Origin: a virus
DNA length: 64,000 nucleotides
Virus record (IMG/VR): IMGVR_UViG_3300009161_006153
Coordinates: 1 to 64,000 of that record
Reading direction: 5' to 3' (one strand)
The notes beneath the pieces are model-generated. The model worked only from the letters and a program-made list of their open reading frames with translations. It was not told where the DNA came from and made no database searches. This document shows positions 793-62,861 of this stretch, piece by piece. Position numbers and translations under genes: made by a program. Numbering within the stretch: position 1 is the stretch's first letter; each line of letters opens with the position of its first letter.

Positions 793-793
793 T

Positions 794-2292: not shown

Positions 2293-2301
2293 AAAAAATA
2301 T

Positions 2302-3126: not shown

Positions 3127-3128
3127 AA

Positions 3129-3845: not shown

Positions 3846-3847
3846 AC

Positions 3848-4891: not shown

Positions 4892-4895
4892 AAAT

Positions 4896-5627: not shown

Positions 5628-5660
5628 TCAAAAACGGTATAATAAAATAAAATAATAATA

Positions 5661-6914: not shown

Positions 6915-6928
6915 TTAAATAGCTAAAT

Positions 6929-9375: not shown

Positions 9376-9377
9376 GA

Positions 9378-12131: not shown

Positions 12132-12132
12132 C

Positions 12133-12945: not shown

Positions 12946-12963
12946 TGAATAAAAATAAAAACA

Positions 12964-16075: not shown

Positions 16076-16079
16076 AAAA

Positions 16080-17139: not shown

Positions 17140-18405
17140 ATGAAAGTTTTAGATTTCAGATCTTATCATAGATTGAACGAGGATTTATCCGCTTCTACTG
17201 GCGCAGTAGACCAAATTTTAAATCTTTTTTTCCAGGCTTACGGAAGTTTAGTTACAAAAATAGGTGACTATCCAGATGCAGTTAAGGATTTAATGGATAT
17301 AGCTAAAGAGAAAGACCCAGCTAAAGCTGGACAGCTTTTCTTGAATACCTTAAATAAGCTTGCCTCTAAGGTTGATGCCAAGTATAAAGAAGCAGCGGAT
17401 CAAATAGTCTTGGCTGGTAAGAAAATGAAAGAGGCATACGATTCTGCACTGCAAACAGAAGAGGGTAAGAAGGATTTAGAAAAAGTGAAAGAGGGGGTAT
17501 ACGATAGAATTATTGGTTATCTCGATTCACTTAAAAAAGTGGCAGCAGAAGCACCTAAGCCAAAAGAAGATTCTGCGGATACCAATGAAAGCTGGGAATA
17601 CGAAGAACAGTCACACCTCTTTCTTTTTGAGAAGAACACCTTCTCTGAATCAAGAGAGGAGATAATAGCTGACATAACACCTCAGTTAACTTTAGCTAAG
17701 GATTTATCTAAAAATCCTGCAACTTCTGGTCTAGGATCTAAATTCAAAAAAATAGCTTCTGATCTGGAGAATCTTCAGAAAGAACTTTCACAAGAAAATG
17801 AGGTTAGCTGGAAGAAAATGAAGCGTAGAGAAAGAAAGGACAGAATAGAAGAAATAAGGGATCTAGTTAAAACAGCAAAAGATGATCTGATAGCAACTTC
17901 ACTTGAAGGTGTAAAGTCTCTAGGAATAGATAAAAACGTTTTGTCAAAAATTAAAGAAGCCTCTGATCTTGTAACGGATTCTGTAAAATTAATAGATGCT
18001 ATAGATAAAGAGGAAGCGGTGAAAAACGAAGAAGAGAAGAAAAAAGAGAAAGAGAAAGAAGAGGCGGATAAGAAAGATAAAGAGGAGGTAGAAGAAACTT
18101 TCACTGAAATTAAAAGTGGAAACTCTGAAAAAGAAAACCTGACTAAAAAAGGTAAAAACAAAGAGGTTATTATGAAAGCTCAGGAAATGATAAATTCACA
18201 TCTTCCGGAGAAAGAAAGAATAAAGGCAGATGGCCTTTATGGTAATAACACAGAGAAAGCCATTAAAAAAGTAGCAGATATGTACAGTAATCTTGCTCCT
18301 GATTTATTAAAGAGCGTAGATGGTAAATCAATGACCCCTGATTTTCAAAAATTCCTTTCGAAGATGGAGAAAAACAAGGATAAGGTAAAAGAGCTTTTTA
18401 AATAA
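17140..18405 (+). CDS. Putative internal head/virion protein with PG-binding-like C-terminus
   Basis: I start the gene at the ATG at 17140, after the terminator and promoter element, not at upstream in-frame codons that overlap gmd. The 421-residue product begins 'MKVLDFRSYHRLNED'. This resembles T4 capsid-targeting peptides (T4 internal proteins begin MKTYQEFIAE), with Leu-Asn-Glu at the place of the LxE prohead-protease site. The middle is highly charged and helical, with a long K/E-rich tract near residues 300-330. The end has 'QEMINSHL' and 'IKADGLYGNNTEKAIKK', like a peptidoglycan-binding-1 domain. A scaffold or internal head protein fits best; function is otherwise unknown. Confidence 0.55.
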   Translation: MKVLDFRSYHRLNEDLSASTGAVDQILNLFFQAYGSLVTKIGDYPDAVKDLMDIAKEKDPAKAGQLFLNTLNKLASKVDAKYKEAADQIVLAGKKMKEAYDSALQTEEGKKDLEKVKEGVYDRIIGYLDSLKKVAAEAPKPKEDSADTNESWEYEEQSHLFLFEKNTFSESREEIIADITPQLTLAKDLSKNPATSGLGSKFKKIASDLENLQKELSQENEVSWKKMKRRERKDRIEEIRDLVKTAKDDLIATSLEGVKSLGIDKNVLSKIKEASDLVTDSVKLIDAIDKEEAVKNEEEKKKEKEKEEADKKDKEEVEETFTEIKSGNSEKENLTKKGKNKEVIMKAQEMINSHLPEKERIKADGLYGNNTEKAIKKVADMYSNLAPDLLKSVDGKSMTPDFQKFLSKMEKNKDKVKELFK

Positions 18406-18414
18406 TTATACTTA

Positions 18415-29039: not shown

Positions 29040-31274
29040 ATGGCATTTAGAATACAATTAAGAAGGGACACCTCAGCTTTATGGGAAATAAACAACCCCT
29101 TACTTTTACAGGGTGAAGCTGGTTATGAATCAGACACTAGATATTTAAAAGTTGGTGACGGAATAACATACTGGAATAGTCTGCCTTATTTTGTAGGAAT
29201 GACAGGCCCACAGGGTTCAACCGGCTCGCAAGGTCCAACCGGGTCACAAGGACCAACTGGATCTCAGGGCACAACAGGTCAGCAAGGTCCAACTGGACCC
29301 GCAGGAGGTGTTATAAATCTCACCACAATAGGAACCTCTGGACCTGCCACTTTTTTGAATGATTTTTTAAATATACCGCAGTATCAAAGTGTCATCACTA
29401 ATCCAATAACAGGAACAGGTTTAACCGGTTACATACCCCGATGGTCTACTACCTCCTCTCTTACAAATTCTATTTTATTTGATAATGGTACGAATATAGG
29501 CATAGGTACAACAGGTCCTTCTTATAAACTAGATGTTAACGGGGAAATTAACACTAATATCGGGATAAGAATAGGCACTAATAATGCTAAAACCGGTTTT
29601 TATGGTGGAGCTAATATAGTAGATATGTGGGCAGGAAACGAGAAATTAGCTACATGGGGACTAGCTCCCGCTGGAGGCACACTATATGATCATTTTGCAG
29701 GTTGGGTTTTTACTACAGGTAGTACGGGTACTGCATCTTCCGCATTTAGAATATCCTCTAGCTTAGTATCAACATCTGCAAATAATGCAGGATTAACCCA
29801 ACTTTTAATCAATCCAGGATATAGCCAGCAAACATTTGGTATAGGTACATTAAGAGGCGTATATTACAATCCTAGCTTAGGTAGTGGCGGAATTAACACA
29901 TCTACCCATATAGCTTTCGAAAATACAAGTGGTGATAATTCTTTTAATTCAGGTTCAGGTAAAACTACTTTTTTTGGTCAAGATTTACAAATCCGAAAAA
30001 ATCCATCTGGCTATGCTGGTTTTAATACCATATATTCACAAGTTCCTTTATTTACAGGGGGATTAACCAATTTTAGTGATACTACAAACGCATATATTAC
30101 GCAAGGTGTTTTAGGCGGGAATAATATGGCTACTAACACTGTACTAATAAGAAACTTACTAGGGGACGTATCACAATCATCTGGCACATATACCAATACA
30201 CAAATTTTAGGTAGAGTATTAAGTGCAACTGGAAGTCCTGAACATAGATTCTTACATATTAATCCCAGTTATGATGACAACCAAGTTCTTAATACATATA
30301 CAGGAACTATAAGAGGTGTTTATTACAATCTTACCCAAAGTACTTCTTTTCCAGCCGGGGGTAAAAACATAGCTTTTGAAAATGTAAATGGTGATAACTA
30401 TTTAAACTCTACATCAGGTTCCACCTTAATAGGATACACATCGGGTGCAACCTCTTCCTATGTACTAGATATAAACGGTAGAGCAAGAACTACACTAGCA
30501 CTACAGGCAGGTTTAACAGGTCCTAGCGATGCAAATATAGCTGCTGGCGTTTTGTTTGCTTCTAGTGGAATAATAGCGACAACAAACGGCATTAATATAG
30601 CTTCTATTACAAGCTCGCCTTTTAATAAAAATGGGATATATCCAACTAGTAACGGCATGCTTTTTTTCAACGGAAATAACCAAATTGCTAAAATGCAGTT
30701 GCTAGTTGGTGTTTCCCCAGCCTATTTTGAGATCAATGCTTCTTTTAATCCAGCAAACACGGGTAATACTGGAGACCAGTCAATTTTAAGGATACAGGGA
30801 GGAATTCAGCCAGCCGCTAATGTTAACAATTCTACCAATCAAACACAAATAATAATAGACCCTACTATAGATCAATTCAACGGTCTTACCGCAGGTGGTA
30901 CAGGTAGCGGGACTTTAAGAGGAATCTACTACAACCCAACTGTCACAGATATAGCTGGATCAGCAAACAAACATGTAGCGATCCAAACCGTGAAAGGTGA
31001 TGTCCTTTTTGGAACAGGGACATATGCAACAGGGGAGGGTGGATACGTTGGAATAGGCCAGGGATTTAACCCAACAACAGGAGCCACCGCAGATATGCCA
31101 CAAAGGCCCTTGCACGTCAGGGATATAATGAGATTACAGTCTAGAAATACATTCCCTGCTGGAGCTTCCGCAGGAGATATAATGATGTATACAGATGGAT
31201 CTAGTAATGTCGATTTATATTATTACGGTGCAACTGCTGGCGTTGGCGGATGGAGAAAGGTAAGCTTTATTTAA
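29040..31274 (+). CDS. Tail fibre / receptor-binding protein with collagen-like repeats
   Basis: The 744-residue protein begins with a domain like the N-terminus of Bordetella phage Mtd and other fibres ('IQLRRDTSALWEINNPLLLQ', 'DTRYLKVGDGITYWNSLPY'). A G-x-x collagen-like tract follows near residues 57-84 ('TGPQGSTGSQGPTGSQGP'). The rest has 'GIGTTGPSYKLDVNG', typical of Bacteroidota fibre proteins. A module 'GTLRGVYYNP ... AFEN..GDN' occurs three times (about residues 277, 423 and 623). No intramolecular chaperone is visible at the C-terminus. It likely forms a trimeric fibre that contacts the host surface. Confidence 0.82.
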   Translation: MAFRIQLRRDTSALWEINNPLLLQGEAGYESDTRYLKVGDGITYWNSLPYFVGMTGPQGSTGSQGPTGSQGPTGSQGTTGQQGPTGPAGGVINLTTIGTSGPATFLNDFLNIPQYQSVITNPITGTGLTGYIPRWSTTSSLTNSILFDNGTNIGIGTTGPSYKLDVNGEINTNIGIRIGTNNAKTGFYGGANIVDMWAGNEKLATWGLAPAGGTLYDHFAGWVFTTGSTGTASSAFRISSSLVSTSANNAGLTQLLINPGYSQQTFGIGTLRGVYYNPSLGSGGINTSTHIAFENTSGDNSFNSGSGKTTFFGQDLQIRKNPSGYAGFNTIYSQVPLFTGGLTNFSDTTNAYITQGVLGGNNMATNTVLIRNLLGDVSQSSGTYTNTQILGRVLSATGSPEHRFLHINPSYDDNQVLNTYTGTIRGVYYNLTQSTSFPAGGKNIAFENVNGDNYLNSTSGSTLIGYTSGATSSYVLDINGRARTTLALQAGLTGPSDANIAAGVLFASSGIIATTNGINIASITSSPFNKNGIYPTSNGMLFFNGNNQIAKMQLLVGVSPAYFEINASFNPANTGNTGDQSILRIQGGIQPAANVNNSTNQTQIIIDPTIDQFNGLTAGGTGSGTLRGIYYNPTVTDIAGSANKHVAIQTVKGDVLFGTGTYATGEGGYVGIGQGFNPTTGATADMPQRPLHVRDIMRLQSRNTFPAGASAGDIMMYTDGSSNVDLYYYGATAGVGGWRKVSFI

Positions 31275-31332: not shown

Positions 31333-31899
31333 ATGGCATTCAGAGTACAAGTTAGAAGAGATACAGGTCAGAGATGGAGTTTAAATAATCCAATTTTGCT
31401 TAATGGTGAAATGGGATTCAACACTGACACCAACCAATTTAAGATAGGTAACGGTACAACCACGTGGAACTCCCTTTCCTATTGGACTGGAGGTGTAGGA
31501 CCAACTGGACCAACAGGTCCTATAGGTCTTATAGGCCCAACCGGCCCAACCGGACCTGGAAGTTCAGTTAGTTATAAAGTGTATACTGCTTTATTAACAC
31601 AAACAGGTCAAGATGCTCCTGTAGCTATTGTATTAGAAAATACTATTGGGACTATTGTATGGACAAGAAACAGCGCGGGCTCTTACACAGGAACGTTAAA
31701 TAACTCATTTCCTGAAAATAAAACATTTATCACATATACCCATGATGGTATTAACGGAAACACAGGATATCCTGGAGGCGTTAGATGGAACAACAACGAG
31801 GTTGAGTTATCGTTTAATGATGGTATTATGAACCCTGGGCAGTTCATTGATATAGGAGACGATGCTATTGAATCAATAGAAATAAGAGTTTACAATTAA
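31333..31899 (+). CDS. Short collagen-like fibre protein, paralogue of the preceding gene's N-terminus
   Basis: The 188-residue protein repeats the N-terminal module of the fibre at 29040 ('MAFRVQVRRDTGQRWSLNNP', 'FKIGNGTTTWNSLSYW'). It then has a Gly-Pro-Thr collagen-like tract ('GPTGPTGPIGLIGPTGPTGP') and a different 110-residue C-terminal domain. A second, shorter receptor-binding or decoration fibre is likely. A weak TATAAAT-like element (CATATAAATC, 31316-31325) precedes it. Confidence 0.75.
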   Translation: MAFRVQVRRDTGQRWSLNNPILLNGEMGFNTDTNQFKIGNGTTTWNSLSYWTGGVGPTGPTGPIGLIGPTGPTGPGSSVSYKVYTALLTQTGQDAPVAIVLENTIGTIVWTRNSAGSYTGTLNNSFPENKTFITYTHDGINGNTGYPGGVRWNNNEVELSFNDGIMNPGQFIDIGDDAIESIEIRVYN

Positions 31900-38507: not shown

Positions 38508-39293
38508 ATGCCCAGAAGAAAACCAAAACCTGAAAAAGTAATCCAGGAAAAAATAAAGGAAAGCTTGGACTCTATTATTATGGAGGAGTCTTTAGATTCT
38601 TTAGTTCTGAACACTGATGAGCTACCAAGATTAAAGACGACTGAAATGATGAATTTCCTGGAGGAGAAAACAACAGCTTTAGCAGATGCACAGGCTCTTC
38701 TTGATTCTATATCTAAATTTTACGTGGATCCTGATGTTTATGGAAACACTAGTCATATTGATCTGAAGAAGAAAATAGATGCTACTAATTTATCTGCAAT
38801 GATGTTCCAATTAAAATCTGCACAGCATGCTATCGTAAAGCTCTTAGAGGAAATAGATCTGGGTAATGTACAACCAAGATTATTTGAAGTTCTAGCACAG
38901 TTGCAATCGCAGATCATGCAAATGCCTAAAGACCTCCAGCAGTACCTTGATAAAATGGAGGGAAGCTATAAGAAAACAAAAATGGAGGTTGAGGAGAAAA
39001 GACTCTCCGGTGGTGTGGTAATGGAGCAGGAAGGATCTGATGGAAACTTCTCACCCGGAAAGATCTCAAATGTACCAGGCGGATTAAAATCTAGAGGAAC
39101 TAAGGGACTGATGGAGGGATTGAGAGATATATTGGGGTCTGAAATAGTAGACGTAAAGCCATTAGAGGAAAATCCTAATTCAATAGTAAACGCCAGATTA
39201 AAAAAAGAGATGAATCAAACCAAAGAATCTGACTATGATAACGATGATAACGGAACTTCAGATTTTACCTTAGAAGATGAAATTTTAGAATAA
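38508..39293 (+). CDS. Small terminase subunit, gp16-like
   Basis: The 261-residue acidic protein directly precedes the large terminase and overlaps its ATG by one base (TAATG), as T4 gp16 precedes gp17. Its helical centre ('LKSAQHAIVKLLEEI', 'QPRLFEVLAQLQSQIMQM') resembles T4 gp16 ('SPRHMEVFATLMGQM'). Ends are charged and probably disordered, and the protein is longer than T4 gp16 (164). It would recognise DNA for packaging and regulate gp17. Assigned mainly by position plus this short likeness. Confidence 0.65.
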   Translation: MPRRKPKPEKVIQEKIKESLDSIIMEESLDSLVLNTDELPRLKTTEMMNFLEEKTTALADAQALLDSISKFYVDPDVYGNTSHIDLKKKIDATNLSAMMFQLKSAQHAIVKLLEEIDLGNVQPRLFEVLAQLQSQIMQMPKDLQQYLDKMEGSYKKTKMEVEEKRLSGGVVMEQEGSDGNFSPGKISNVPGGLKSRGTKGLMEGLRDILGSEIVDVKPLEENPNSIVNARLKKEMNQTKESDYDNDDNGTSDFTLEDEILE

Positions 39294-41143
39294 TGCAAGA
39301 TTTTTTAGAAGAAGAAATAGAATACTCTCAGGATTCCAGTTACTGGTCAACCGAGAGAATTGACGATTTACTCAGAAGAGTTGACGAGGAGGGACTCGAT
39401 TATAAAAGCGTAGAGAATCCTTTTTACGATAACAATCCTGATTTAAAAAGAGCAAATCTTTTATGGGAGTACACTAGTGAGGAGATAATAGAAATGAAGA
39501 AATGCGCTCAGGACGTAATATATTTTTCTAAGTATTGTCAAGTGATGACCGATAACGGGCTCAACTTTTTAGACCTTAGAGACTACCAGCAATCTGTTCT
39601 TAGAGAATATCAATCCCATAGATTCAATGTTTTCCTTGCTCCTAGACAAGTAGGTAAATCGATAATATCCTCAGTTTTTCTAGTTTGGTATTTACTCTTC
39701 AATCACGATAAAAACGCTATGATCCTTGCAAACGTCGGGGACACCGCTGAAGAGCTAATGGACAAAATTAAAACAATAATAAAGGGATTGCCATTTTTTC
39801 TCAAACCGGGGATGCTTGTGAATAACGTGATGTCTATGAGATTTGATAACGGGTGTAGAATATTAGCTAAAACAACAACTAAAACATCTGGTATTGGTTT
39901 TACCATCCATTTTTTGTACATGGATGAGTTTGCTCACATCAATCCAAATTTTATAGAGGCTTTTTTCAGATCAACATACCCCACGGTGTCTTCGTCTAAG
40001 GTTTCTCGGATTATTGTAACATCTACACCTAATGGGTTAAATAAATTTTATGAGATCTATCAAGGTGCTCTAGATTCGACTAACACGTTCAACCCAATAC
40101 GTGTTGATTGGTGGCAAGTTCCAGGAAGGGATGAAGCATGGAAACAGGCAGAGATCGGAAACCTTGGAAGTGAGGAGCTTTTTAATCAAGAATATGGTAA
40201 TCAATTCCTTAGCTCCTCCTCTTTGTTATTAGGATCAAACGAGCTTAAGAAAATAAAGTCAATAGAAACTGAATATTTCTGGAGAGAGCTAAGTCCCCTA
40301 CATGATCTCGATCTCAACTATGAAAATCTTATTTGGCACCCTAAGTTTCAAATAGATCTTGCTAATTCTGGTGGTAAAAAATTTGTGTTGAGCATAGATC
40401 TGAGCGGGGGAGGAAAAGGTGATTTCACTGTGATTAATATTTTCAAAGCAACACCACTTCCGATGTCGATAATTGAAAAAATAACAACTTTCGATAATGA
40501 GACTGATTTTTTTGGCCTTGTGCAGGTAGGTGTTTTTAGAGACAATGAGATCAAATTAGAGAATTTAGTAGAACTTGTAAATTCCTTAGTAGTAGACGTT
40601 CTTGGCTTAGAAAGAACAAAGCTTGTAATAGAGATGAACTATAAAGGAGAACTCCTTTATGATAAGTTGTGTCAGAATGATGATTTTTTTGACGGGATGT
40701 TTCTGTTTACGAAACACACAGAAAGCGCAAAAACATTAAAACCTGGTATTAAGTACAACCAAAAAAACAAAATGCAGTATTGCGAATTGCTAAGAGGCCT
40801 AGTGAAAGAAAATAGGATCATGGTGAATGAAAAAAAATGGACAGTCCCTGAATTATTTACTTTTGGCTTAAATAATAGTGGAACCTACTCAAGCCAAACT
40901 GGACATGATGATGTGGCTATGACTCTAGTTAATCTATCGCCCTTATTTGAAGGTAGGGACTTTTCAGATTTAGTTGGGGAGCTTTATGATGAAATGGAGG
41001 GACCTTATAAAGAATTAATGCAGAAGAAAATAGAAGGAAGCGACCAATCTAATTCAGGATATAATCCAATGGATCCTTTTTCTAGAAGAAGTGTATCAAC
41101 AAAAGAGGGAAAAAGCTATACAGATTTCAGTAAGCTCATTTAG
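39293..41143 (+). CDS. Terminase large subunit, gp17-like
   Basis: The 616-residue packaging motor has Walker A 'APRQVGKS' (116-123), Walker B 'FLYMDEFAH' (207-215), the coupling motif 'IIVTSTPNGLNKF', and the nuclease domain with 'VLSIDLSGGGKGDFTVI' and the C-terminal 'TGHDDVAMTLVNL'. Length equals T4 gp17 (610). It cuts concatemers and drives DNA into proheads through the portal. The C-terminal 60 residues are low-complexity. Confidence 0.95.
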   Translation: MQDFLEEEIEYSQDSSYWSTERIDDLLRRVDEEGLDYKSVENPFYDNNPDLKRANLLWEYTSEEIIEMKKCAQDVIYFSKYCQVMTDNGLNFLDLRDYQQSVLREYQSHRFNVFLAPRQVGKSIISSVFLVWYLLFNHDKNAMILANVGDTAEELMDKIKTIIKGLPFFLKPGMLVNNVMSMRFDNGCRILAKTTTKTSGIGFTIHFLYMDEFAHINPNFIEAFFRSTYPTVSSSKVSRIIVTSTPNGLNKFYEIYQGALDSTNTFNPIRVDWWQVPGRDEAWKQAEIGNLGSEELFNQEYGNQFLSSSSLLLGSNELKKIKSIETEYFWRELSPLHDLDLNYENLIWHPKFQIDLANSGGKKFVLSIDLSGGGKGDFTVINIFKATPLPMSIIEKITTFDNETDFFGLVQVGVFRDNEIKLENLVELVNSLVVDVLGLERTKLVIEMNYKGELLYDKLCQNDDFFDGMFLFTKHTESAKTLKPGIKYNQKNKMQYCELLRGLVKENRIMVNEKKWTVPELFTFGLNNSGTYSSQTGHDDVAMTLVNLSPLFEGRDFSDLVGELYDEMEGPYKELMQKKIEGSDQSNSGYNPMDPFSRRSVSTKEGKSYTDFSKLI

Positions 41144-41222: not shown

Positions 41223-44200
41223 ATGGCAAATAAGATAAAGATAGACTATTCCCAGTTTAAAGCATCTGGTGTCTACACGCTTGAGTTTGATGCCTCGCAA
41301 AATGTCATCCTGACATCACAGACTATTAGACTAGTCGTAGGATTTTCAAACAAAGGACCGTTTAACACACCTGTTTACATCCCAGACGCAACAACTCTGT
41401 TACAAGTCTACGGTGACATTGATCGGTCACTTGAAAATATGGGAAGCTTTTTCCAGAGATCAATCCTAACCTGTTTAAATACTGGACCTGTTTTTGGACT
41501 TAATTTATTGAAATTAAATGACGATTTAGATTCTTCTAATCCCGATATAGACACATATTTTTCATACTCATTAGATACTGAGCAGTCTAATGGTGTTTTA
41601 ACAGAAGTACTTTATTCATCTTTCTATAATAAGGAAAGATTCTGGTTTGCTGACCCTAAGTATTTTTTAGCAACATTAAGCGTTCCTGATACAGGAAGAT
41701 TGTTTAGCTTAACTAATTTAGGAAGAACCTCTGTAAGTGTTATTACTAGGAAATCAACCGATTCTTCTAGACCTCTTACTGGCTTTGATATCTTTGCTAT
41801 AGATTGGTATGGTGCGGATAATGTTCCTACTTTTATGCACCCCTATGATTACATATCAGATTACTTTATTGATGTGATAGCAGTATCAGGTAATTGGACA
41901 GACTACGCCTCTTTATCTGTTGATCCAAAGTGGGCATTTTGGTTTACCCCTAATGGTTTTATAAAAGACAGGATCGATTCCTTTTTAAATCAACAAGATG
42001 TGAATATAATCGCATCTGTTACGGGGTGTATCATTCCTGATTTCGTTAACTTAAATGGTGTTAATCAGTATATCCAAACACTTGTAAATGCTCAGACCCC
42101 AACAACTGGATTATTCTGCGCTATAGACGAAAACGCTTTTGAAGACATTTGTAACAATCCTTTCAAGATAGATCTAGTTGGAAATAATCTAATTGATGAG
42201 CTTTCTGGGGATCGTGATTTAGCTAACCCGCAGCTTAATTTCTTAAGCTACGATCAACCCCTTGTAACTGACCAATTATACACACAGAATGTGATAGGTG
42301 TAACAGGAAGTACTGGATACATCAGCCCTAATGGTGCCTCTGGATCCTATTCAGGCGGTAAAGTCGGTACGCTCTTCACTATAAATTCAGGAGCCACAGC
42401 TGGTGTTATATACCAATCATTTCTGCCGTATAACTCCTCTTTATTTGATGGGGGATTACACTATTTAGAGACAAGCGGTACTACCTCTGCAAATGGTGGT
42501 ATATCTTCTGCTGCTCAAAAAAATGAGCTTAAATCATTTCTTACAGTAAACACATCATCTGATCAAAAGTTTGTTTTAGGGGTAGTTACTGGACTTTCTG
42601 GAGCAACTGGATCTTTAATATCCCAGTTTTCTGAATATGATTTGGTAAAGCTTAAAGTAACAGGAACAAGAGATGTTAGTGGTGAGCTTAGAATTATTTG
42701 GAGTCATCCTTTAGATACGGCAACATACAGAGCTCAAGGAATTGTTATCGCTCCTACATATACATTGACTTCTTATAATACAGGTGCATCGGGAAGTAAC
42801 AAGCCATTCTGGACGGATGCTTATCAATTTGGAGACTCTGACTTTGTTGATGTAGTAAACACACAAACACCAGCAGGGGTAACTGGACCTAATGCTCCTA
42901 TAGGTTATTCAAATGTTTTACAAGGGTATATCAATACGACACTATACTCTGATGTTGAATATGAGGTTTTAGCTGACGGCGATGAGATTTGGCTGAATTC
43001 TGCCGGGTCATCAGTTCAGTATTTAAGTTTTGAAAAACAAGTAGATAAGGATCAGTTTAACTATGTAAACTCAAGAGCTCATACAAGTAACTCTCTAACA
43101 GGTGTTTCCATCACTAACGTACCTTCTTTTGGGTCGATGTACGCAAGTGACAACATAGGATTCACGGTGTCATATAATAAATTTGATATTGTTTCTGCTA
43201 ACGGTAATATAAACGATTTTATAGATTGTACAAGAGAGGATGTTACAACCTTCTTAGTAAGCGAGCTTCCTGATGGATCAGTACCTTTCTCTGTTGGCGA
43301 TTTGGTTGTTTCTACCGATTTAAACATATGTACTCCAACTACAGGAAATAGACAAAACAGATTAGCTAAAATTACCGTAGTTTCAAGAACAACAACTTCT
43401 GGAGTTTATAGAGTAATATCAGCTAGACCTGTTTTATACTACTCTGGAGATGGCGGGGGATTAAGAGTTCAGAAATTTTTCTCTATTGCTCAATTTACAA
43501 GATCTTTTGATTTCACATACCTTGCTGGATTTACCTTGCAAGATACACACAAGCCAAATGGATCGGATGCTAGAGTTGAACAGATCTTAGATGTTCTTTA
43601 TGATACAAATCTTGCTAAGACCCTTGCACAGAAGGATGTTATCTCCTTCCGCTACATAATAGATTCGTTTAACGGAATAATCGGGCCTAGCTCTAAATTC
43701 CAATATAGCAGATTGGCACAATTGAGACAACAGGCTTTGGCAATAATAAATGCTCCATCTATGGCACAGTTCCAGGAGAGCACAGATCCTAGATTTACAA
43801 ATGCACCTACTGCGACGAATCCGTACCCTACTTTAAACACAGCCTACATAGCCTCTGGCGGTAATCTTTCACTAAATCCAAGCTATACCTTTAGTTTACC
43901 TACAGAAGGCGATGGAGCTAAGTTTGCAGCCTTTTATGCACCCTACATAACTATCAGGGAGAATAATAAAAACATAAACGTTCCTCCTTCGGCTTACGTT
44001 TCGAACAACTTCGTAAGAAAATTTGCTAACGGAGAACCTTATGCAATTGTTGCAGGGCAGAAAAGAGGAGCTATAAGCGGGGGAAGTATAGTAGGACTTG
44101 AATATGATTTTAGCACAGAAGATAGAGAAAATTTAGAGCCTTTTGGAATAAATCCAATCATTAAGAAGAGAGGTATAGGAGTAGTTATCTTTGGAAATCA

Positions 44201-44567
44201 GACAGCATACCAAACTGTAAATTCTGCTTTCAATCTTGTTCATGTTAGAGATTTATTGATAAGCATTGAAAGTGATGTTGAAACGATATTGGCTAACTAT
44301 TTGTTTGATTTTAACGATGACTCAATTAGACTTGAAATTAAAACACTTGTTGATAATTATCTAGATGGTGTAAGATCGGGAGGGGGAGTTTACGCCTACC
44401 AAACAATAATGGATGCATCTAATAATACCCCTGCTATCATTGATATGAATATGGGTGTAATCGATGTAATAATAGAACCAGCTAGAGGAATACAGAAGTT
44501 CATAAACAGAGTAACAGTAACAAGAACTGGGGGAATAGCAGCGGGTGGATTCGTACAGTTCGTTTAA
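41223..44567 (+). CDS. Tail sheath protein, gp18-like, oversized
   Basis: The 1114-residue protein is identified by its C-terminal part: 'FAAFYAPYITIRENNKN', 'NVPPSAYVSNNF', 'NPIIKKRGIGVVIFGNQTAY' and 'FINRVTVTRTGG', the conserved core of contractile sheaths. It also has 'LRLVVGFSNKGPFNTPVYI'-like N-terminal strands after residue 30. T4 gp18 has 659 residues, so about 450 extra residues lie in the middle, rich in Ser/Thr/Gly and beta-like, probably domains exposed on the sheath surface. It is followed by the tube genes as in T4. Confidence 0.9.
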   Translation: MANKIKIDYSQFKASGVYTLEFDASQNVILTSQTIRLVVGFSNKGPFNTPVYIPDATTLLQVYGDIDRSLENMGSFFQRSILTCLNTGPVFGLNLLKLNDDLDSSNPDIDTYFSYSLDTEQSNGVLTEVLYSSFYNKERFWFADPKYFLATLSVPDTGRLFSLTNLGRTSVSVITRKSTDSSRPLTGFDIFAIDWYGADNVPTFMHPYDYISDYFIDVIAVSGNWTDYASLSVDPKWAFWFTPNGFIKDRIDSFLNQQDVNIIASVTGCIIPDFVNLNGVNQYIQTLVNAQTPTTGLFCAIDENAFEDICNNPFKIDLVGNNLIDELSGDRDLANPQLNFLSYDQPLVTDQLYTQNVIGVTGSTGYISPNGASGSYSGGKVGTLFTINSGATAGVIYQSFLPYNSSLFDGGLHYLETSGTTSANGGISSAAQKNELKSFLTVNTSSDQKFVLGVVTGLSGATGSLISQFSEYDLVKLKVTGTRDVSGELRIIWSHPLDTATYRAQGIVIAPTYTLTSYNTGASGSNKPFWTDAYQFGDSDFVDVVNTQTPAGVTGPNAPIGYSNVLQGYINTTLYSDVEYEVLADGDEIWLNSAGSSVQYLSFEKQVDKDQFNYVNSRAHTSNSLTGVSITNVPSFGSMYASDNIGFTVSYNKFDIVSANGNINDFIDCTREDVTTFLVSELPDGSVPFSVGDLVVSTDLNICTPTTGNRQNRLAKITVVSRTTTSGVYRVISARPVLYYSGDGGGLRVQKFFSIAQFTRSFDFTYLAGFTLQDTHKPNGSDARVEQILDVLYDTNLAKTLAQKDVISFRYIIDSFNGIIGPSSKFQYSRLAQLRQQALAIINAPSMAQFQESTDPRFTNAPTATNPYPTLNTAYIASGGNLSLNPSYTFSLPTEGDGAKFAAFYAPYITIRENNKNINVPPSAYVSNNFVRKFANGEPYAIVAGQKRGAISGGSIVGLEYDFSTEDRENLEPFGINPIIKKRGIGVVIFGNQTAYQTVNSAFNLVHVRDLLISIESDVETILANYLFDFNDDSIRLEIKTLVDNYLDGVRSGGGVYAYQTIMDASNNTPAIIDMNMGVIDVIIEPARGIQKFINRVTVTRTGGIAAGGFVQFV

Positions 44568-53122: not shown

Positions 53123-53809
53123 TTGAACGAGCAAGACCCAAATATATCTAACACCTTAAATTTTGACGGTGGAAATTCTTTAGGTGGTGGCATAGATTTA
53201 CCCGGGGGTAATTCAACCTATGCGCAAAACCCTCTTCAGGGATCACCGACTGGTGGATTGTTTATTACCCAATACACAAATATAGCTAGGACCCAAGCTC
53301 AATTCACAAGAATAAATGCAACTTTTAGGGACTTTAATATCCAGCCTTCCCTCAGATTTTCTGGGGAAAAAATAAGGGTTACACAAAGGGCTGAAACTTT
53401 GGACTTTCTCGACCTTGCTTCTTTTTTTCATCCTATACAATCTTTTTCAGAGTTTCAAAAACAGACTTTCGTTATTAACCCAAGAAGTACCATTAATTTA
53501 GATCCTTTTAGTTTTACGACAACTAACGGGGAAGTATCTTTAATAATGGCTAGAGCATACTATCTTCCTGAGGCAACCCCGGAGTCAATGCTTCTTTTCT
53601 GGGATTATCAAGGGAATGATAGAAATGTTATGGGACAAATAATGGTCCTTAGTGGAGCTGTGAAAAACAGCTCAGCCTGGGAGGGATGGGACCTAAATCC
53701 TTTTACCGATGTAAATCACACTGATCCGGCAAACATCTCATTAGGTGGATTATCTTTTACTAATCCAACTGATCTGAATGTCAAGCTTTCAATATTAGTT
53801 TCTAGCTAA
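53123..53809 (+). CDS. Virion-type protein, paralogue of the next gene
   Basis: The start is TTG 53123; no ATG is near the beginning. The 228-residue beta-rich protein begins with a Gly/Asn/Pro-rich segment ('GGNSLGGGIDLPGGNSTYAQ') and ends 'SLGGLSFTNPTDLNVKLSIL'. It shares an order of motifs with the next protein: 'INPRSTINL', 'GQIMVLSG', 'AWEGWDL', 'NPTDLNVKLSILVSS' against 'VRPSSCILL', 'GELLILSG', 'IYEGWFL', 'NPHTDITIKMEILVAL'. No known domain. A decoration or fibre-associated role is guesswork. Confidence 0.6.
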   Translation: MNEQDPNISNTLNFDGGNSLGGGIDLPGGNSTYAQNPLQGSPTGGLFITQYTNIARTQAQFTRINATFRDFNIQPSLRFSGEKIRVTQRAETLDFLDLASFFHPIQSFSEFQKQTFVINPRSTINLDPFSFTTTNGEVSLIMARAYYLPEATPESMLLFWDYQGNDRNVMGQIMVLSGAVKNSSAWEGWDLNPFTDVNHTDPANISLGGLSFTNPTDLNVKLSILVSS

Positions 53810-54295
53810 ATGGCAACACAACCAATTATATGCCCGTATGAAGAGGTACCTGGATTTAGATTTTTCAGGGGTAATCTTGTTCTTGATGATGGGAAAACAT
53901 CATCACCCCCAGTTTACATGTATCTCTCTGATATAATTTCTGAGGTTACCTCCTTTTCAAAATCTAGCGTGACAGTAAGGCCGAGTTCTTGTATACTTTT
54001 ATCCCAAACAGATATAGGTGATAGTTTAGGTTATGTGAGCTTTATAGCTATCAGAGCTAATTTTGTCGGAGCTGGATACGAGACTAAAAAATATTACAAC
54101 TGGACGTACGACGAGGTAACCTATACTTCCGGGGAGTTGCTAATACTTTCAGGCCCAAGCCTTTCAGCAACAACATCAATTTACGAAGGATGGTTTTTAT
54201 CTAAGCCTGGGGTCTATTCACAGAGCGGGGGTATTCTATTATGCAATCCACATACCGATATTACTATAAAAATGGAAATTCTGGTTGCTCTTTAA
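53810..54295 (+). CDS. Virion-type protein, paralogue of the preceding gene
   Basis: The 161-residue protein starts immediately after the upstream stop (TAA ATG). It is a beta-rich domain ('YMYLSDIISEVTSFSKSSVT', 'YEGWFLSKPGVYSQSGG') with the same core strand order as its neighbour but without the long N-terminal segment. The tandem arrangement suggests a duplicated small structural domain. The function is unknown. Confidence 0.6.
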   Translation: MATQPIICPYEEVPGFRFFRGNLVLDDGKTSSPPVYMYLSDIISEVTSFSKSSVTVRPSSCILLSQTDIGDSLGYVSFIAIRANFVGAGYETKKYYNWTYDEVTYTSGELLILSGPSLSATTSIYEGWFLSKPGVYSQSGGILLCNPHTDITIKMEILVAL

Positions 54296-57071: not shown

Positions 57072-57431
57072 ATGGCAAAAGACTATGTAAGAAATCCGGA
57101 CCTCCTTGTGGCGGTAAAAGAATCCAAAAATCAAGGTAAGTTAACCCCTGAAACAATAAGGATGTTTAATTTAATGATACAAGGTATTTCAAAAAAAATG
57201 GCTTACAAAGATCAAGATGACAAAGACGATTGCATGGCTTTTGCAATGGAGGATCTTTGTAAATACTGGGATAGATTCAATCCTGAGAAATCTAATAACC
57301 CGTTTGCGTATTTCACTCAAATAGCTAAAAATGGTTTTGCAAAAGGATGGAAAAAGCTCCATCCCCCGAAAAATCCAAAGACTATTCCTTTTAGTTACAT
57401 AACTGGCGATGATAACAGCTATAATGTTTAA
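57072..57431 (+). CDS. Late-transcription sigma factor, T4 gp55-like
   Basis: The 119-residue protein aligns by eye with T4 gp55: 'NPDLLVAVKESKNQGKLTPE' against '[20 protein letters not shown]', 'GISKKMAYKDQD' against 'GLSKRFNFSGYT', and 'NPFAYFTQIAKNGFAKGWKK' against '[20 protein letters not shown]'. gp55 replaces the host sigma and reads the late TATAAATA box with the sliding clamp as activator. It is shorter than T4 gp55 (185) and lacks most of the C-terminal tail that binds the clamp. The ATATATA elements across the window are its likely targets. Confidence 0.78.
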   Translation: MAKDYVRNPDLLVAVKESKNQGKLTPETIRMFNLMIQGISKKMAYKDQDDKDDCMAFAMEDLCKYWDRFNPEKSNNPFAYFTQIAKNGFAKGWKKLHPPKNPKTIPFSYITGDDNSYNV

Positions 57432-57439
57432 TCATTACC

Positions 57440-57925
57440 ATGACAGATATAAAAAAAATAAAGCCTAGTGGCGAGTATAAATCTGGAAAATTTGAGCCTA
57501 GCAATCCCCAAAAATATATTGGAGACATCCACAATATAATTTACAGATCTTCGTGGGAGTACAGATTTTGTGTCTATTGTGATACAAATGAAAGCATACT
57601 AAAATGGTCCTCCGAGCCAATTGCTATAAAATACGTTAATCCCTTGGATAAAAAGGAGCATGATTATAATGTCGATTTTTATATAAAGGTTCAAGCTATC
57701 TCAGAGATCCAAGAGTGGATTATAGAGATCAAGCCTGAAAAACAAACTAAAAAACCTATATTCGAAGGGTCCAATGCAACACTACAAAAGCTAAAATCTT
57801 ATAACAGGAACATGCAGATCTGGATAACGAATCAAGCTAAATTTAAAGCAGCAAAACACTGGGCGGAAAAAAGAGGTTTTAAATTCGGTGTAGTTGGTGA
57901 AAATTTTCTATTTAGAAGTAAATAA
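57440..57925 (+). CDS. Head completion protein, T4 gp4 (gp50/gp4)-like
   Basis: The 161-residue protein parallels T4 gp4: 'NPQKYIGDIHNIIYRSSWEY' with gp4 'NISKYRGDPKKITYRSNWEK', 'ILKWSSEPIAIKYV' with 'IIAWGSETAVIPYF', 'EWIIEIKPEKQTKKP' with 'EFFIEIKPKKETQPP', and 'FKAAKHWAEKRGFKFGV' with 'WKAAQSLAEKRGIKFRI'. The IEIKP segment has the D/E-x-K nuclease-like strand. It completes filled heads before tail joining. Its stop overlaps the next ATG by one base. Confidence 0.9.
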   Translation: MTDIKKIKPSGEYKSGKFEPSNPQKYIGDIHNIIYRSSWEYRFCVYCDTNESILKWSSEPIAIKYVNPLDKKEHDYNVDFYIKVQAISEIQEWIIEIKPEKQTKKPIFEGSNATLQKLKSYNRNMQIWITNQAKFKAAKHWAEKRGFKFGVVGENFLFRSK

Positions 57926-58524
57926 TGAGCTATAAATCACTAGTAGAATCTTATAAGAATGAGTTTAAAAGCCAAGCTGATCTGGTTAAATCCACGGATA
58001 AAACATTCATGGACAAATATTCTAATGGGGATTCAGGATTTAGACCACCTTTCATTACTGGAACAATTTATTACTTTAAATACAATACTACAACAGAAAT
58101 ATCTAAGGATCGTAGTTTTATTAACAGGAATCCCCTTTTACTTTGCACAGATTATATGAGAGGAAGTAATGGAACTATAGTAATTGGGATAGATCTTATT
58201 ACCGTGCCACCTTTTGAGAGAATAGAGATAATTTCTAGGGTTTATGATACCTTTAATAATACTATAGAATCTAACGAGAGCTCTTTAAATAAAGGGGGAA
58301 AGCAAACCCCTATCCAGTTTAGAAATGGTGTACTGGAGAGGTTGATGCGGGGGACTGGATATTCTAAATCCTTATTCGGATTTAAACTTGATTTTATAGA
58401 TTCTGTTGTTGAGATAAAACTAGAGGATTGGTCTAAAATACCTTATTTAAGATCATCCTCCATAGAAGGGAAGAGCGTAGAAGAAATATATAAAGAATAT
58501 AAAGTGAAATTAAAAGGCACATAG
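57925..58524 (+). CDS. Conserved T4-like phage protein of unknown role
   Basis: The 199-residue protein has 'RPPFITGTIYYFKYNTTTEI', 'RSFINRNPLLLCTDYMRGSN' and 'VIGIDLITVPPFERIEII', a strand order (G-x-x-Y-x-F-x-Y ... N/F-P-L-L-L ... G-I-N/D-L ... P-P-x-x-R) that I have met in many marine T4-like phages near structural genes. No function can be assigned. Coupling to gp4 and its place before the portal genes suggest head or packaging. Confidence 0.65.
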   Translation: MSYKSLVESYKNEFKSQADLVKSTDKTFMDKYSNGDSGFRPPFITGTIYYFKYNTTTEISKDRSFINRNPLLLCTDYMRGSNGTIVIGIDLITVPPFERIEIISRVYDTFNNTIESNESSLNKGGKQTPIQFRNGVLERLMRGTGYSKSLFGFKLDFIDSVVEIKLEDWSKIPYLRSSSIEGKSVEEIYKEYKVKLKGT

Positions 58525-58542: not shown

Positions 58543-60138
58543 ATGGCAGGTTTTAACGATAGCACACCACAAGGATCTCCTGTAGTACAGAGGATAAGGG
58601 ACTCCCTTAAAAGAATTAGTACTTTTGGAATGAAATATGACGATATGGTCATAAGAAATTCGCAGGCTGTTGGTGTAACGGAGGCTGCTTTTCTAAACAA
58701 AAATAAATCCAATGTAGAGGACGAGGCTATGCTTTGGACTCTTGCCAAGCAGGATATTGCAACAAAGCAATTTATCTCTTACTTTGATAAGGATTATAAG
58801 GGTAAACGTGATTATCTCAGAAAATTTTCACTTAATCCCGAAATAGAATGGGTTCTTGATACCTTATGTGACGAATCAGTTTCATACGATCCATCTAATT
58901 TCTTTGCATACCCTGATTTTTTAGACCTAACAGATATCAACGAAAAAATAAGGGATGAGATAAATGACACGTACAAGAGGATTTATGATATCTGGGGATT
59001 CACAGATGATATTACGGCTTGGCAATATTTTAGACAATTTCTTGTTGACGGATTTCTTTGCTTTGAAATAATTTACAATAATATTGGTGATGAAATTATA
59101 GGGTTCAAAGAGCTTGACCCCGTAACTATTATACCGTCAGTAGAAAAACAAGCAGATGGGTCTTTTCTTAGCACATGGATGCAATATCCTCAAGATCCTA
59201 GGAGAAGAAGAGTTCTATATGATCCCCAGATTATCTACATATCTTATGCAAAGGGTAACTCTGTTTCCCGTGTAAGTTATGTTGAAAGACTGATTAGACC
59301 TTATAATATACTTAGAATCATAGAATACACGAGAGTGATCTGGTCTGTTATGAATGCATCTTTTAAAATGAAGATGACCGTTCCGATAGGAACTAAATCA
59401 CAACAGAAGGGAATGCAAACTCTAGGTGAACTGATGAGTATCTATAAAGAGGATATCCAGATGAACGATGACACCGGTGAATTGCTAGTTGATGGTAGAC
59501 CCAAAATACAGTTCTATAAAAATTATTTAATGCCTTCAGGAGTAAACGGTACTCCACAGATAGAACCACTTACTATGGATGGTCCAAATTTGAACGATAC
59601 AACTCCATTGAACTATTTCTTTGATAAATTCGTTCAAGAATCTAAAGTCCCAGCTTCTAGATTTCACGGACCTGACGGGGGAAATACATCAACTTACACT
59701 AATGCTGGGGACGGGTTAGATAAGGAGGAGATAAGATTTCAAAAATTTATTTCTAGGCTTAGATCTATATTTCAAGAGGTAATGACAAAGCCTCTTTGGA
59801 TACAAATGATAAAAAAACATCCGAGCTTAGAAAAAGATTTCATGTTTAAAAGTCAGCTTGGTCTAAAATACTTTTCAGATAATCCATTTAAACTTAATCA
59901 AGAAATGGACATCATTAATAACAGGAAAGAATCACTTACCTCTATGATTTCACTAACTGGTGATGAGGATAAGCCTTATTTTTCAGTTCCTTTTCTTGTT
60001 GAAAACTTCTTAGGAATATCTCGACAGGATTTAACAGCAAATGCAGAAGCTATTAAAAGAAAGAAGAAAGAGAAAGAAAAGGAAGAGAAGAAAGGAAAGG
60101 GTAAGGATAAAAAAGACGAAGGTGAAATAACTTTATAA
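58543..60138 (+). CDS. Portal vertex protein, gp20-like, copy 1
   Basis: The 531-residue protein has the T4 gp20 pattern: 'DYLRKFSLNPEIEWVLDTLC', 'GFKELDPVTIIP', 'QIIYISYAKGNSVSRVSYVE', 'RPKIQFYKNYLMPSG', 'VPASRFHGPDGGNTS' and 'FQKFISRLRSIFQEVM'. Length matches T4 gp20 (524). Twelve copies form the DNA entry ring at one head vertex, which the terminase binds. The C-terminus is a Lys/Glu-rich tail ending 'DEGEITL'. It is followed four bases later by a second full-length portal gene. Confidence 0.93.
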   Translation: MAGFNDSTPQGSPVVQRIRDSLKRISTFGMKYDDMVIRNSQAVGVTEAAFLNKNKSNVEDEAMLWTLAKQDIATKQFISYFDKDYKGKRDYLRKFSLNPEIEWVLDTLCDESVSYDPSNFFAYPDFLDLTDINEKIRDEINDTYKRIYDIWGFTDDITAWQYFRQFLVDGFLCFEIIYNNIGDEIIGFKELDPVTIIPSVEKQADGSFLSTWMQYPQDPRRRRVLYDPQIIYISYAKGNSVSRVSYVERLIRPYNILRIIEYTRVIWSVMNASFKMKMTVPIGTKSQQKGMQTLGELMSIYKEDIQMNDDTGELLVDGRPKIQFYKNYLMPSGVNGTPQIEPLTMDGPNLNDTTPLNYFFDKFVQESKVPASRFHGPDGGNTSTYTNAGDGLDKEEIRFQKFISRLRSIFQEVMTKPLWIQMIKKHPSLEKDFMFKSQLGLKYFSDNPFKLNQEMDIINNRKESLTSMISLTGDEDKPYFSVPFLVENFLGISRQDLTANAEAIKRKKKEKEKEEKKGKGKDKKDEGEITL

Positions 60139-60142
60139 AAAA

Positions 60143-61792
60143 ATGGCAGGATTTTTAGATGGGTTTAAACCCAATCAATCAGCGTTAGGTAACATCTTAA
60201 GAAGTTTGGGAAAAATCTCAAAGTTTGGGATGGAGTATGATGACATGGTTGTAAGAAACTCCCAAGCCATTGGAAAAAGCGAATCCCAATTTTTCAACCA
60301 GCAGGGAACTGGGTTTACTGAAAATGATGCTTTTTATTGGACCCTTTCCTATCAGGACACGAGAGTAAGAAAATACATTGCATACTTCGACAAAGATTAT
60401 ATTGAGAAAAGGAATTACCTCAGAAAATTTTCATTGAACGGAGAGATTGAATTTATACTTGACACAATAACTGACGAGTGTGTATCGTATAGTGATCGTA
60501 ATTTTTTTGCTACACCCTCTTTTGTAAATATAGGGGACATGAAGGATAAAGTGAAAGAAAAAATTACTGAACATTATAATAGAATTTATAACGTTTTTGG
60601 ATTTCAAAATACTATTCTAGCTTGGCAAGTATTTAAGCAATTCTTAATAGACGGCTTTCTTTCTTACGAGATAATTTATGACAGCAAGGGAAAGGAAATA
60701 ATAGGTTTCAAGGAATTAGATCCAACATCACTTCAACCAGCTGTAGAGAAGATAAGTGAAACTGAATATAAGCAATTCTGGATTCAGTATCCTAAAAACC
60801 CACAAATGACAAGAAGACTCACTAATGAGCAGGTCATTTATATTTCGTATGCAAAAGGAAATGCTGTTTCAAGGGTTAGCTATGTCGAAAGATTAATAAG
60901 GTCTTATAACATACTTAGGATAATGGAAAATTCTAGGGTTATCTGGAATGTTATGAATGCTTCTTTTAGATTAAAATTTATTATCCCTACAGGAACACAA
61001 TCACCACAAAAAGCTCTTCAAACTCTTGGTCAGATAATGTCTAACTACAAAGAGGAGTATTCTATTAATGATACATCTGGCGAATTAACTATAAACGGAA
61101 GGCCAAAAATACAGTTCTATAAAAATTATTTATTTCCTGAGCAAAACGGGCAAAGCCCAGAGGTATCTACCTTAAATCCAAGTGGTCCTGATTTTAATGT
61201 CATGGATAACGTTCTGTATTTTTTTAATAAGCTCAAAATGGATTCAAAAATACCTTATGCGAGGTTTGCATCTAGAGGAGCAACGCCAATTAATTCTCAG
61301 ATTAGTATAGATGCATTGGAAAGAGACGAGATTAGATTTGAGAAGTTTTTAAGAAGACTTAGATCTATTTTTCAGGAGATATTAGTTAAGCCTCTCTATA
61401 TCCAAATGTGTCTCGAATTCCCTGAATTATCAAAGGATAGAGCTTTTAAAACTAATCTTGGACTTGATTTTTATAGGGAGAGCGAATTTGAAGAACTCGT
61501 TCAACTTTCAAATTATAAAAAGAGAGCAGACTTTGTTACTGGACTAGGCGAATATAAAATGAAAATAGGTGAAGAAGAGGTACCATATTTTGACAAGGAT
61601 TTCTTGGTTCAAAGGTTTATGCAATTAAGTCCGGACCAATTCAAACAAAATGCAGATTACAAAAAGAAAGAATCTGCAGAGGCGGAAAAAGCATCTAAAG
61701 AAAAAGAAGGTGGTGAAGAAGGTGGAGCGGAGGGAGCAGAGGGAGCAGCGGGAGCAGCTGAGGGGGAAAAAGAAGGCGGAGTAACACTATAA
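60143..61792 (+). CDS. Portal vertex protein, gp20-like, copy 2
   Basis: The 549-residue protein parallels copy 1 throughout: 'FGMEYDDMVVRNSQAIG', 'NYLRKFSLNGEIEFILDTIT', 'GFKELDPTSLQP', 'QVIYISYAKGNAVSRVSYVE', 'RPKIQFYKNYLFPEQNG', 'IPYARFASRGATP' and 'FEKFLRRLRSIFQEIL'. No stop or frame break is present, and all blocks are kept, so both copies look functional. The tail differs: Gly/Glu/Ala-rich, ending 'EKEGGVTL', with the same TL terminus as copy 1. Whether one 12-mer mixes both proteins is unknown. Confidence 0.92.
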   Translation: MAGFLDGFKPNQSALGNILRSLGKISKFGMEYDDMVVRNSQAIGKSESQFFNQQGTGFTENDAFYWTLSYQDTRVRKYIAYFDKDYIEKRNYLRKFSLNGEIEFILDTITDECVSYSDRNFFATPSFVNIGDMKDKVKEKITEHYNRIYNVFGFQNTILAWQVFKQFLIDGFLSYEIIYDSKGKEIIGFKELDPTSLQPAVEKISETEYKQFWIQYPKNPQMTRRLTNEQVIYISYAKGNAVSRVSYVERLIRSYNILRIMENSRVIWNVMNASFRLKFIIPTGTQSPQKALQTLGQIMSNYKEEYSINDTSGELTINGRPKIQFYKNYLFPEQNGQSPEVSTLNPSGPDFNVMDNVLYFFNKLKMDSKIPYARFASRGATPINSQISIDALERDEIRFEKFLRRLRSIFQEILVKPLYIQMCLEFPELSKDRAFKTNLGLDFYRESEFEELVQLSNYKKRADFVTGLGEYKMKIGEEEVPYFDKDFLVQRFMQLSPDQFKQNADYKKKESAEAEKASKEKEGGEEGGAEGAEGAAGAAEGEKEGGVTL

Positions 61793-61853: not shown

Positions 61854-62861
61854 GTGGAAAAGAAAGTAAAGGATCTTTTAGCTGAAAGAAACCATTTTTC
61901 AGATATCAGAATTCTAGTTATTGGAGATGTTATGTTGGATCATTATCTCTACGGTAATGTTGAAAGGATTTCCCCGGAGGCTCCTGTACCTGTAGTTGTA
62001 AAATCCGATGAAAAGTTTTTCTTAGGTGGTGCGGGTAATGTTTTCTCTAATATTATTTCTTTAGGCGGAAAATGTGATTTGATATCTGCTCTAGGTGAAG
62101 ATCAGAATTCTAGTTATATTAAAGATCTCGTGGTAAAGCATAGCTCTGGTAGTTTTTTATTCCTAGACTCATCAAGAATAACTACTGTAAAACAAAGGGT
62201 GATGTCGGGTCACCACCAGTTATTAAGAGTAGACTCTGAAACGACCCTCGATATAGATGGGTCGGTACAATCAAACATAATTCAGAAGGTAAAAGAAATA
62301 GCTAAAAAATATGACTGCATAATATTGTCTGATTATAACAAAGGAGTTTTAACCCCAGAAGTTATAAGGACTGTAATAATGGAATGCAGAGAATTAAATA
62401 TACCTGTTATAGCAGACCCGAAGATTAAATATCTTGATTTTTATTCAGGATGTACTATCATAAAACCTAATTTTAAAGAATTTTTAAATCTGTGTGAAAC
62501 CACTATCTCTCCTGACGATTTAGATTCGATAAGATCTTATGCAATAAAAATAAAAGATAGGTTCAGACTGGAAGCGGTTGTTATAACACTTTCTGATAGG
62601 GGAATATTTTATCTAGACCAGAATGAAAATTTCATGGGAGAAGCTTTTAAAATACCAGTCTCGGATGTTTCTGGCGCTGGTGATACTGTCCTTGCAGTGC
62701 TTGCACTTTGCTATTCTATAGGATTAGAAAAATCTTTTACTGTGGATCTGTGTAACATCGCCGGGTCTATTGCTTGTCAAAGAGTAGGATCAGCTTGTGT
62801 TACCCTGGATGATCTCAATTCACATCCTCATCTGAGAGAGAAATATTCATTCAAAAAATAA
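61854..62861 (+). CDS. Heptose-7-phosphate kinase-like PfkB protein (HldE/RfaE N-terminal domain)
   Basis: The start is GTG 61854. The 335-residue product has 'ILVIGDVMLDHYLYGNVERI' and 'SPEAPVPVV', which is the opening of HldE kinase domains. It also has 'LGGAGNVFSNIISLGGK' (PfkB signature 1) and 'VSDVSGAGDTVLAVLAL' (signature 2 with the catalytic Asp). It matches the kinase half only; the adenylyltransferase half of HldE is absent. It would phosphorylate D-glycero-D-manno-heptose 7-phosphate at O1. It lies 62 bases after the portal gene, far from the other heptose genes. Another sugar kinase specificity is possible. Confidence 0.82.
   Translation: MEKKVKDLLAERNHFSDIRILVIGDVMLDHYLYGNVERISPEAPVPVVVKSDEKFFLGGAGNVFSNIISLGGKCDLISALGEDQNSSYIKDLVVKHSSGSFLFLDSSRITTVKQRVMSGHHQLLRVDSETTLDIDGSVQSNIIQKVKEIAKKYDCIILSDYNKGVLTPEVIRTVIMECRELNIPVIADPKIKYLDFYSGCTIIKPNFKEFLNLCETTISPDDLDSIRSYAIKIKDRFRLEAVVITLSDRGIFYLDQNENFMGEAFKIPVSDVSGAGDTVLAVLALCYSIGLEKSFTVDLCNIAGSIACQRVGSACVTLDDLNSHPHLREKYSFKK

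Follow-up and report, generated by a model that had tools for sequence, protein, structure and literature searches.

The window, a stretch of 64,000 nucleotides comprising positions 1 to 64,000 of the IMG/VR virus record IMGVR_UViG_3300009161_006153, carries two full-length, tandemly arranged genes of the T4 gp20 portal family, in the following designated A and B (531 and 549 amino acids, respectively). All complete loci of the clade to which this virus belongs harbour two full portal genes in place of the usual single one. The two-portal phages constitute a T4-related group of uncultured viruses of very large size. Both paralogues are under strong and about equal purifying selection and neither of them is decaying. 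In addition, we newly found that the tail tube gene is doubled in exactly the two-portal genomes. While the portal family is familiar, the paired architecture is new. The sequence comparisons described below make it, in our judgement, an even chance that A and B co-assemble as one heteromeric portal ring at a single packaging vertex.

Table 1. Position of the portal genes, of their parts and of associated structural genes within the window.
Feature	Position	Strand	Profile matches (E values)
Terminase large subunit, single copy	39293..41143	+	phrog_5989 4e-57, PF03237 3e-18
Tail sheath, single copy	41223..44567	+	phrog_34521 3e-117
Tail tube paralogue 1, 184 aa	44608..45162	+	phrog_3629 tail tube 2e-7, phrog_32623 3e-38
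Tail tube paralogue 2, 191 aa	45179..45754	+	phrog_45/3629 tail tube ~1e-6, phrog_32623 3e-31
Late sigma factor, gp55-like	57072..57431	+	phrog_234 6e-15
gp4-like head closure protein	57440..57925	+	phrog_218 2e-47
gp2-like DNA end protector	57925..58524	+	phrog_429 1e-5
Portal paralogue A, gp20-like, 531 aa	58543..60138	+	PF07230 5e-58, phrog_213 2e-55
Clip domain of A, ~residues 272-352 (aligned to T4 279-358)	59356..59598	+	
C-terminal tail tip of A, KDEGEITL	60112..60135	+	
Portal paralogue B, gp20-like, 549 aa	60143..61792	+	PF07230 2e-66, phrog_213 3e-64
Clip domain of B, ~residues 273-353	60959..61201	+	
C-terminal tail tip of B, EKEGGVTL	61766..61789	+	

Identity of the tandem portal genes

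The open reading frames and the matches to PF07230 and phrog_213, which span the length of both proteins, bear out the claim of an earlier note on this DNA that two full-length gp20-like genes lie four bases apart. Both genes are read from the same strand and the four bases separate the stop codon of A from the start codon of B. With PF07230 scores of 197 bits for A and 225 bits for B, compared to a curated cut-off of 22.9, both proteins belong to this family over the portal core. Over 517 aligned residues they are 49% identical and 69% similar to each other. A profile search against the PDB ranks T4 gp20 first for A (1e-29) as well as for B (3e-32), and a Foldseek search with AlphaFold2 monomer models of low to moderate confidence (mean pLDDT of 56 for A and 62 for B) yields gp20 chains of T4 as top matches (E values of 7e-17 and 4e-20). 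The models hence point to a portal fold in both A and B. There is no third portal gene in the 74,949-base record that contains the window.

The two proteins had been described as differing in their middles. Indeed, divergence is strongest in the region of clip, stem and tunnel loop as well as in the tails, yet the alignment of A with B is continuous throughout. The terminal TL which A and B had been said to share forms the C-terminal end of both. Within one genome the tail tips of A and B are more alike than across genomes, mostly with different synonymous codons. This matching is not significant after phylogenetic correction and, since the corrected test comprised too few independent pairs, we treat the within-genome likeness of the tips only as a hint. 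Gene conversion as the source of the similar tips was rejected on the grounds that the synonymous codons differ in most pairs; a single locus (L051) looks converted.

Distribution of one- and two-portal phages

That one portal gene is the rule, as the earlier note had presumed, is confirmed by a search with A as query, which matches 1,947 of 50,697 public phage records at 1,949 places. The two surplus places are second matches in LR756501 and LR756503, both 735 kb in size. A second full portal gene in LR756501 was rejected, since the profile search reveals one full portal and a mere 186-base fragment in this genome.

The loci obtained by separate scans overlap in part and their numbers are therefore not those of independent genomes: the IMG/VR scan with A as query returned 79 loci, a scan started from a member of the second two-portal group found two portal genes in 78 of 79 newly fetched loci, the exception (L331) stopping right after A, and all loci (80/80) of a scan with a one-portal query carry one portal. 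Among the loci of the scan with A, those down to an identity of ~53% (L003-L062) contain A followed by B, with the exception of one contig which stops after A, and the more distant ones (L063-L081) contain one portal each. A profile search of whole records gave two PF07230 matches in all of the 18 clade members examined, the contigs of which reach 430 kb, and one match each in LR756500, LR745206, Lak-B5 and five outgroup records of IMG/VR. The idea that A and B of group II form a single recoded or fused frame, which an “open frame” of 1,119 codons had suggested, was rejected, since the DNA reads TAATAA between A and B, which are thus separate genes. One of the one-portal relatives (L409) is located on a 606-kb contig binned as a SAR324 bacterium MAG and possibly represents a huge phage contig.

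The portal pair is present in contigs from many metagenomes and no clear loss of a portal is found among the sampled loci of the two-portal clade. An assembly artefact or a recent duplication was rejected in view of the 49% identity, of the presence of the pair in independent contigs and of its occurrence in every untruncated relative. A single gene in related genomes, combined with an assembly duplication in the present one, had been named as an observation which would speak against the tandem pair; instead, the untruncated relatives in two deep groups carry A and B.

Age of the duplication and selection on both copies

In our trees, which are quick trees with SH-aLRT as the only support measure, A and B form sister clades whose inner order is mirrored; the clade of A has a support of 98 in the first and 96 in the wider tree, that of B one of 89 and 96. 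The wider tree contains both copies in both deep groups, namely that of the window and that of L058, L337 and L350, and its two stem branches are nearly equal (0.17 and 0.18). The sister relationship along with the mirrored topologies indicates a single duplication older than the split of the two deep groups. A short MAG contig of 3.3 kb with one portal (L410) appears to branch near the base of the tree.

Calculated after Nei and Gojobori for 32 close genome pairs, median dN/dS amounts to 0.025 for A and 0.024 for B, and the median dN ratio of A to B is 0.93 over all pairs. In most genomes the codon usage of both genes is alike. The presumption that the tandem pair is kept by selection thus stands, as dN/dS is ~0.025 for both copies and the pair is retained across two deep groups. 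A further suggestion, namely that one copy has turned to another role, finds no support because both copies are about equally constrained and symmetrically degenerated.

Among the residues which a set of 28 diverse one-portal proteins conserves, 25 are lost in A only and 24 in B only, and this makes the symmetry apparent. Such an outcome would be predicted for two copies that have shed different features, so that neither can be dispensed with any longer.

Changes in the clip and in other domains

Domain limits were taken from the T4 structure (PMC4493910) and projected by alignment; as the identity to T4 gp20 is ~20%, the mapping of single residues outside the conserved blocks is approximate. 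In most domains conservation of A closely resembles that of B, exceptions being the short second stem segment (0.64 in A, 0.83 in B) and the tail. There are no more than six columns in which A is set apart from B in both deep groups, among them positions T4 336 and T4 341 of the inner clip loop, which adjoin the DNA-facing residues R338 and K342 of T4, and T4 362 of the stem. The paralogue-specific residues of the inner clip loop are M330 and N335 in A and F331 and G336 in B. In one group, fixed differences between A and B are concentrated in clip, stem and tunnel loop; over both groups this enrichment is not significant (p 0.19).

Of the 49 clip residues that are conserved among one-portal relatives, 17 are replaced in A as well as in B, compared to 25 of 182 elsewhere (Fisher p 0.0015). 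Six replacements in the clip are identical in A and B, three of them concerning the positions of T4 R295, K296 and H300. In T4, the clip domain docks terminase and neck, with N291, M292, R295 and K296 being probable terminase contacts (PMC4493910) while R295, K296 and H300 sit on the neck-facing clip surface (PMC12270204). As the identical changes occur in both copies, the clips of A and B seem to face the same changed partner. Part of the shared changes may, however, predate the duplication.

Gene neighbourhood and single-copy partners

The portal genes lie in a neighbourhood of head completion and prohead genes. In two-portal phages A and B follow the genes for the late sigma factor, gp4 and gp2, and the upstream order, consisting of an 809-residue protein, late sigma factor, gp4, gp2 and portal, is common to one- and two-portal phages. 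The closest one-portal relatives are huge phages (LR756500 with 462 kb, Lak phages and IMG/VR contigs), the portal of which reaches an identity of 42-46% with A or B. They share the upstream gene order and differ in possessing one portal gene, one tube gene and a prohead protease gene which directly follows the portal (gp4, in part gp2, portal, protease). In two-portal phages, B is followed by other genes, including ligase, clamp loader and, in some of them, a PfkB kinase; in the record containing the window a protease-like gene begins ~12 kb after B. Although the gene after B varies, there is no insertion between A and B in any of the two-portal loci examined.

Some further observations were made in this region. 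The gp4-like gene (57440-57925) matches the N-terminal domain of TnsA endonucleases. The gene right after B (61854-62861) encodes a PfkB-family carbohydrate kinase, which occupies this position in part of the clade only. At positions 17564-18949 of locus L120 (record ~73563-74948) a prohead-protease-like gene leads into many in-frame SYSEYLAENLDN-like repeats; the gene with its repeats, possibly a fused scaffold, runs off the end of the record.

The terminase large subunit, a partner which both portals would have to share, is single in all genomes but one of 430 kb, which shows a partial second match. The sheath is encoded by one gene in each genome tested, the PF11649 neck match is present in one copy wherever it was detected, and there is one full gp23-type capsid gene, accompanied in some genomes, including a one-portal one, by partial gp23-like extras. 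Apart from partial gp23- or terminase-like extras, which occur in one-portal genomes, too, a search of these genomes revealed no second copy of terminase, sheath, PF11649 neck or main capsid. In LR756500 (L240, positions 180001-200000) the terminase matches fall into several separated pieces, as if introns, inteins or insertions were present.

The tail tube pair

Both tube genes are arranged in tandem directly downstream of the sheath gene and their products are 56% identical (BLASTP). Matches to phrog_3629 and phrog_45 with E values of 1e-7 to 3e-6 assign them to the gp19-like tube proteins, and the profile of tube 1 weakly matches the T4 tube-junction protein gp54 (0.003). In the genome set, every two-portal genome with a tube match has two adjacent tube genes, whereas one-portal genomes with a tube match have one (6/6); one genome of either kind gave no tube match in this search. 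A tube-based scan revealed two tube genes in 83 of 88 loci, the five others being two loci cut by the contig end and three one-portal controls which had been added. Among the full-length tandem paralogues of the 373-kb relative G003, the portal pair and the tube pair stand out as the strongest. The two tubes are similar in their rates of evolution, with a mean identity of 0.83 for tube 1 and 0.81 for tube 2. A codon bias separating an abundant from a rare tube paralogue was rejected, the difference being inconsistent over six genomes. The co-distribution of portal and tube pairs is striking, yet it is an unreplicated association: since each gene duplicated once, on the same stem branch, it amounts to one coincidence in time.

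Further features of the window

About 20 consecutive genes for proteins of 190-420 residues (64-17063) form a large glycan-modification island. Those tested encode FkbM and other methyltransferases, GT6, fucosyltransferase-like enzymes, a UDP-sugar dehydrogenase and a GDP-mannose dehydratase. A fibre-like protein with an Mtd N-terminal domain and collagen-like domains is encoded at 29040-31274, followed by a short gene (31333-31899) with a similar start (MAFR.Q.RRD). Two adjacent genes of unknown family (53123-53809 and 53810-54295), present in the group of the window only, are alike in their C-termini and possibly represent distant paralogues.

Discussion

T4 gp20 (PF07230, phrog_213; PDB 3JA7, 6UZC, 9LU6) resembles A and B in family over nearly the whole protein, shows the same domain plan by alignment and resides in a related context, with gp4, gp2 and the late sigma factor nearby. 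In contrast to T4, where one gene gives rise to a homododecamer, the phages studied here possess two paralogues, each ~20% identical to T4 gp20 and with a remodelled clip. To our knowledge, all characterised phage portals are rings of a single protein, and no mixed one is known to us. Within the open-access literature, to which our search was confined, we found no relevant paper on duplicated, paralogous or heteromeric portals.

Judged by their sequences, A and B both look like working portal subunits with the same partners, neither a relic nor a decoy. With terminase, sheath and main capsid each encoded by a single gene, it is economical to assume that both copies enter one ring. We propose that the ancestral portal gene of a T4-like lineage, the members of which are huge, was duplicated in tandem and that A and B may then have become mutually dependent subunits of one ring at a single vertex. 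In the simplest form, six A would alternate with six B, leading to a C6 ring which would still direct 12 wings toward the capsid, while terminase and hexameric neck would face A-B pairs, six in number and all alike, rather than twelve equivalent subunits. In T4, the portal-neck complex was solved in C6 and the C-terminal arm of gp13 inserts between the clip helices of neighbouring portal subunits (PMC12270204). Given this arm, the clefts of an alternating ring would be of two kinds, and the A-B pairs of the ring would match the 6-fold neck. The tube would be a parallel case, namely a two-subunit tail tube. In this model, the joining of A and B in one ring, their alternation, their stoichiometry and the argument from symmetry are what we infer.

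In favour of a mixed ring we count the equal constraint, the symmetric loss, the joint remodelling of the clip, the uninterrupted adjacency of the genes and the co-distribution with the tube pair. Against it we count that two homomeric rings with the same partners would likewise account for the equal constraint and for the changes common to both clips, and that every portal known to us is a homo-oligomer. Heteromeric rings born by gene duplication, the subunits of which are demonstrated to co-assemble, exist in cells, such as the V-ATPase c-ring, CCT and MCM. They share the proposed mechanism, in which ring subunits become mutually dependent after losing different features, but are not of phage origin, and for A and B co-assembly is so far a proposal. 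T4 itself keeps duplicated structural paralogues in one virion, gp23/gp24 in the capsid and gp19/gp54 in the tube. These occupy different positions, whereas A and B retain full portal features and equal constraint. A wider version of the mixed ring, which we put forward tentatively and hold to be rather less probable than the ring itself, is an obligate two-subunit channel from head to tail tip, in which an alternating A/B portal (C6, not C12) and an alternating two-subunit tube (C3, not C6) would have arisen on the same ancestral branch.

It appears unlikely, albeit worth considering, that the paralogues are specialised for stage or position along one axis, one of them being the portal proper and the other one forming a second ring or being swapped in at another step, with tube 2 acting as a tube-initiator or terminator ring in the manner of T4 gp54. 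Contractile tails do have paralogous end-ring proteins, the tube profile weakly matches gp54, and a Bacteroidales injection system is reported to have two tube genes (PMC7394362). A ring with other neighbours should, however, lose constraint in clip and wing, while conservation is near-equal in nearly every portal domain; likewise, the tubes evolve at similar rates and reveal no consistent difference in codon bias.

Slightly less probable still are two homomeric rings, with A and B building separate dodecamers. These might belong to different types of virion or occupy different vertices of a single head, of which one might serve packaging and the other tail attachment, for instance, and the tubes would form two kinds of tail. 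The retention of all portal domains and of full constraint in both A and B would fit this arrangement, as would the doubled tube. Terminase, sheath and main capsid genes, however, are not doubled, the divergence of A and B in wing and clip is not asymmetric, and the same new residues appear in the clip of both.

That the copies are interchangeable and kept by dosage or drift, for the sake of expression level and with labour undivided, we regard as improbable. Though the genes adjoin and are alike in codon usage, fixed A/B differences persist in both deep groups, and interchangeable copies would be lost or homogenised while no clear loss occurs in the sampled loci.

Finally, a second portal and a second tube might evade host sensors, either as decoys or by virtue of an altered surface in mixed assemblies. 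Portals trigger bacterial defence, Avs4 being a sensor of them. The tail tube does so as well, being sensed by DSR2 (PMC10981675). Nevertheless, a role in counter-defence is very improbable, since a decoy should not match the constraint of the working copy in all structural domains and the retention of the pair by all members despite their deep divergence is more in line with a role in assembly.

The 12-fold symmetry of the portal has long been puzzling, given that it faces a capsid of 5-fold symmetry, a motor of five subunits and a 6-fold tail. If A and B do co-assemble, and the tube paralogues likewise, a phage portal of heteromeric composition would be seen for the first time, and symmetry would be lowered stepwise along the whole DNA channel. 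The two-portal clade with its doubled tube provides a natural experiment on which portal surfaces two subunits can divide between them, and it allows the role of an exactly 12-fold symmetry to be put to the test.
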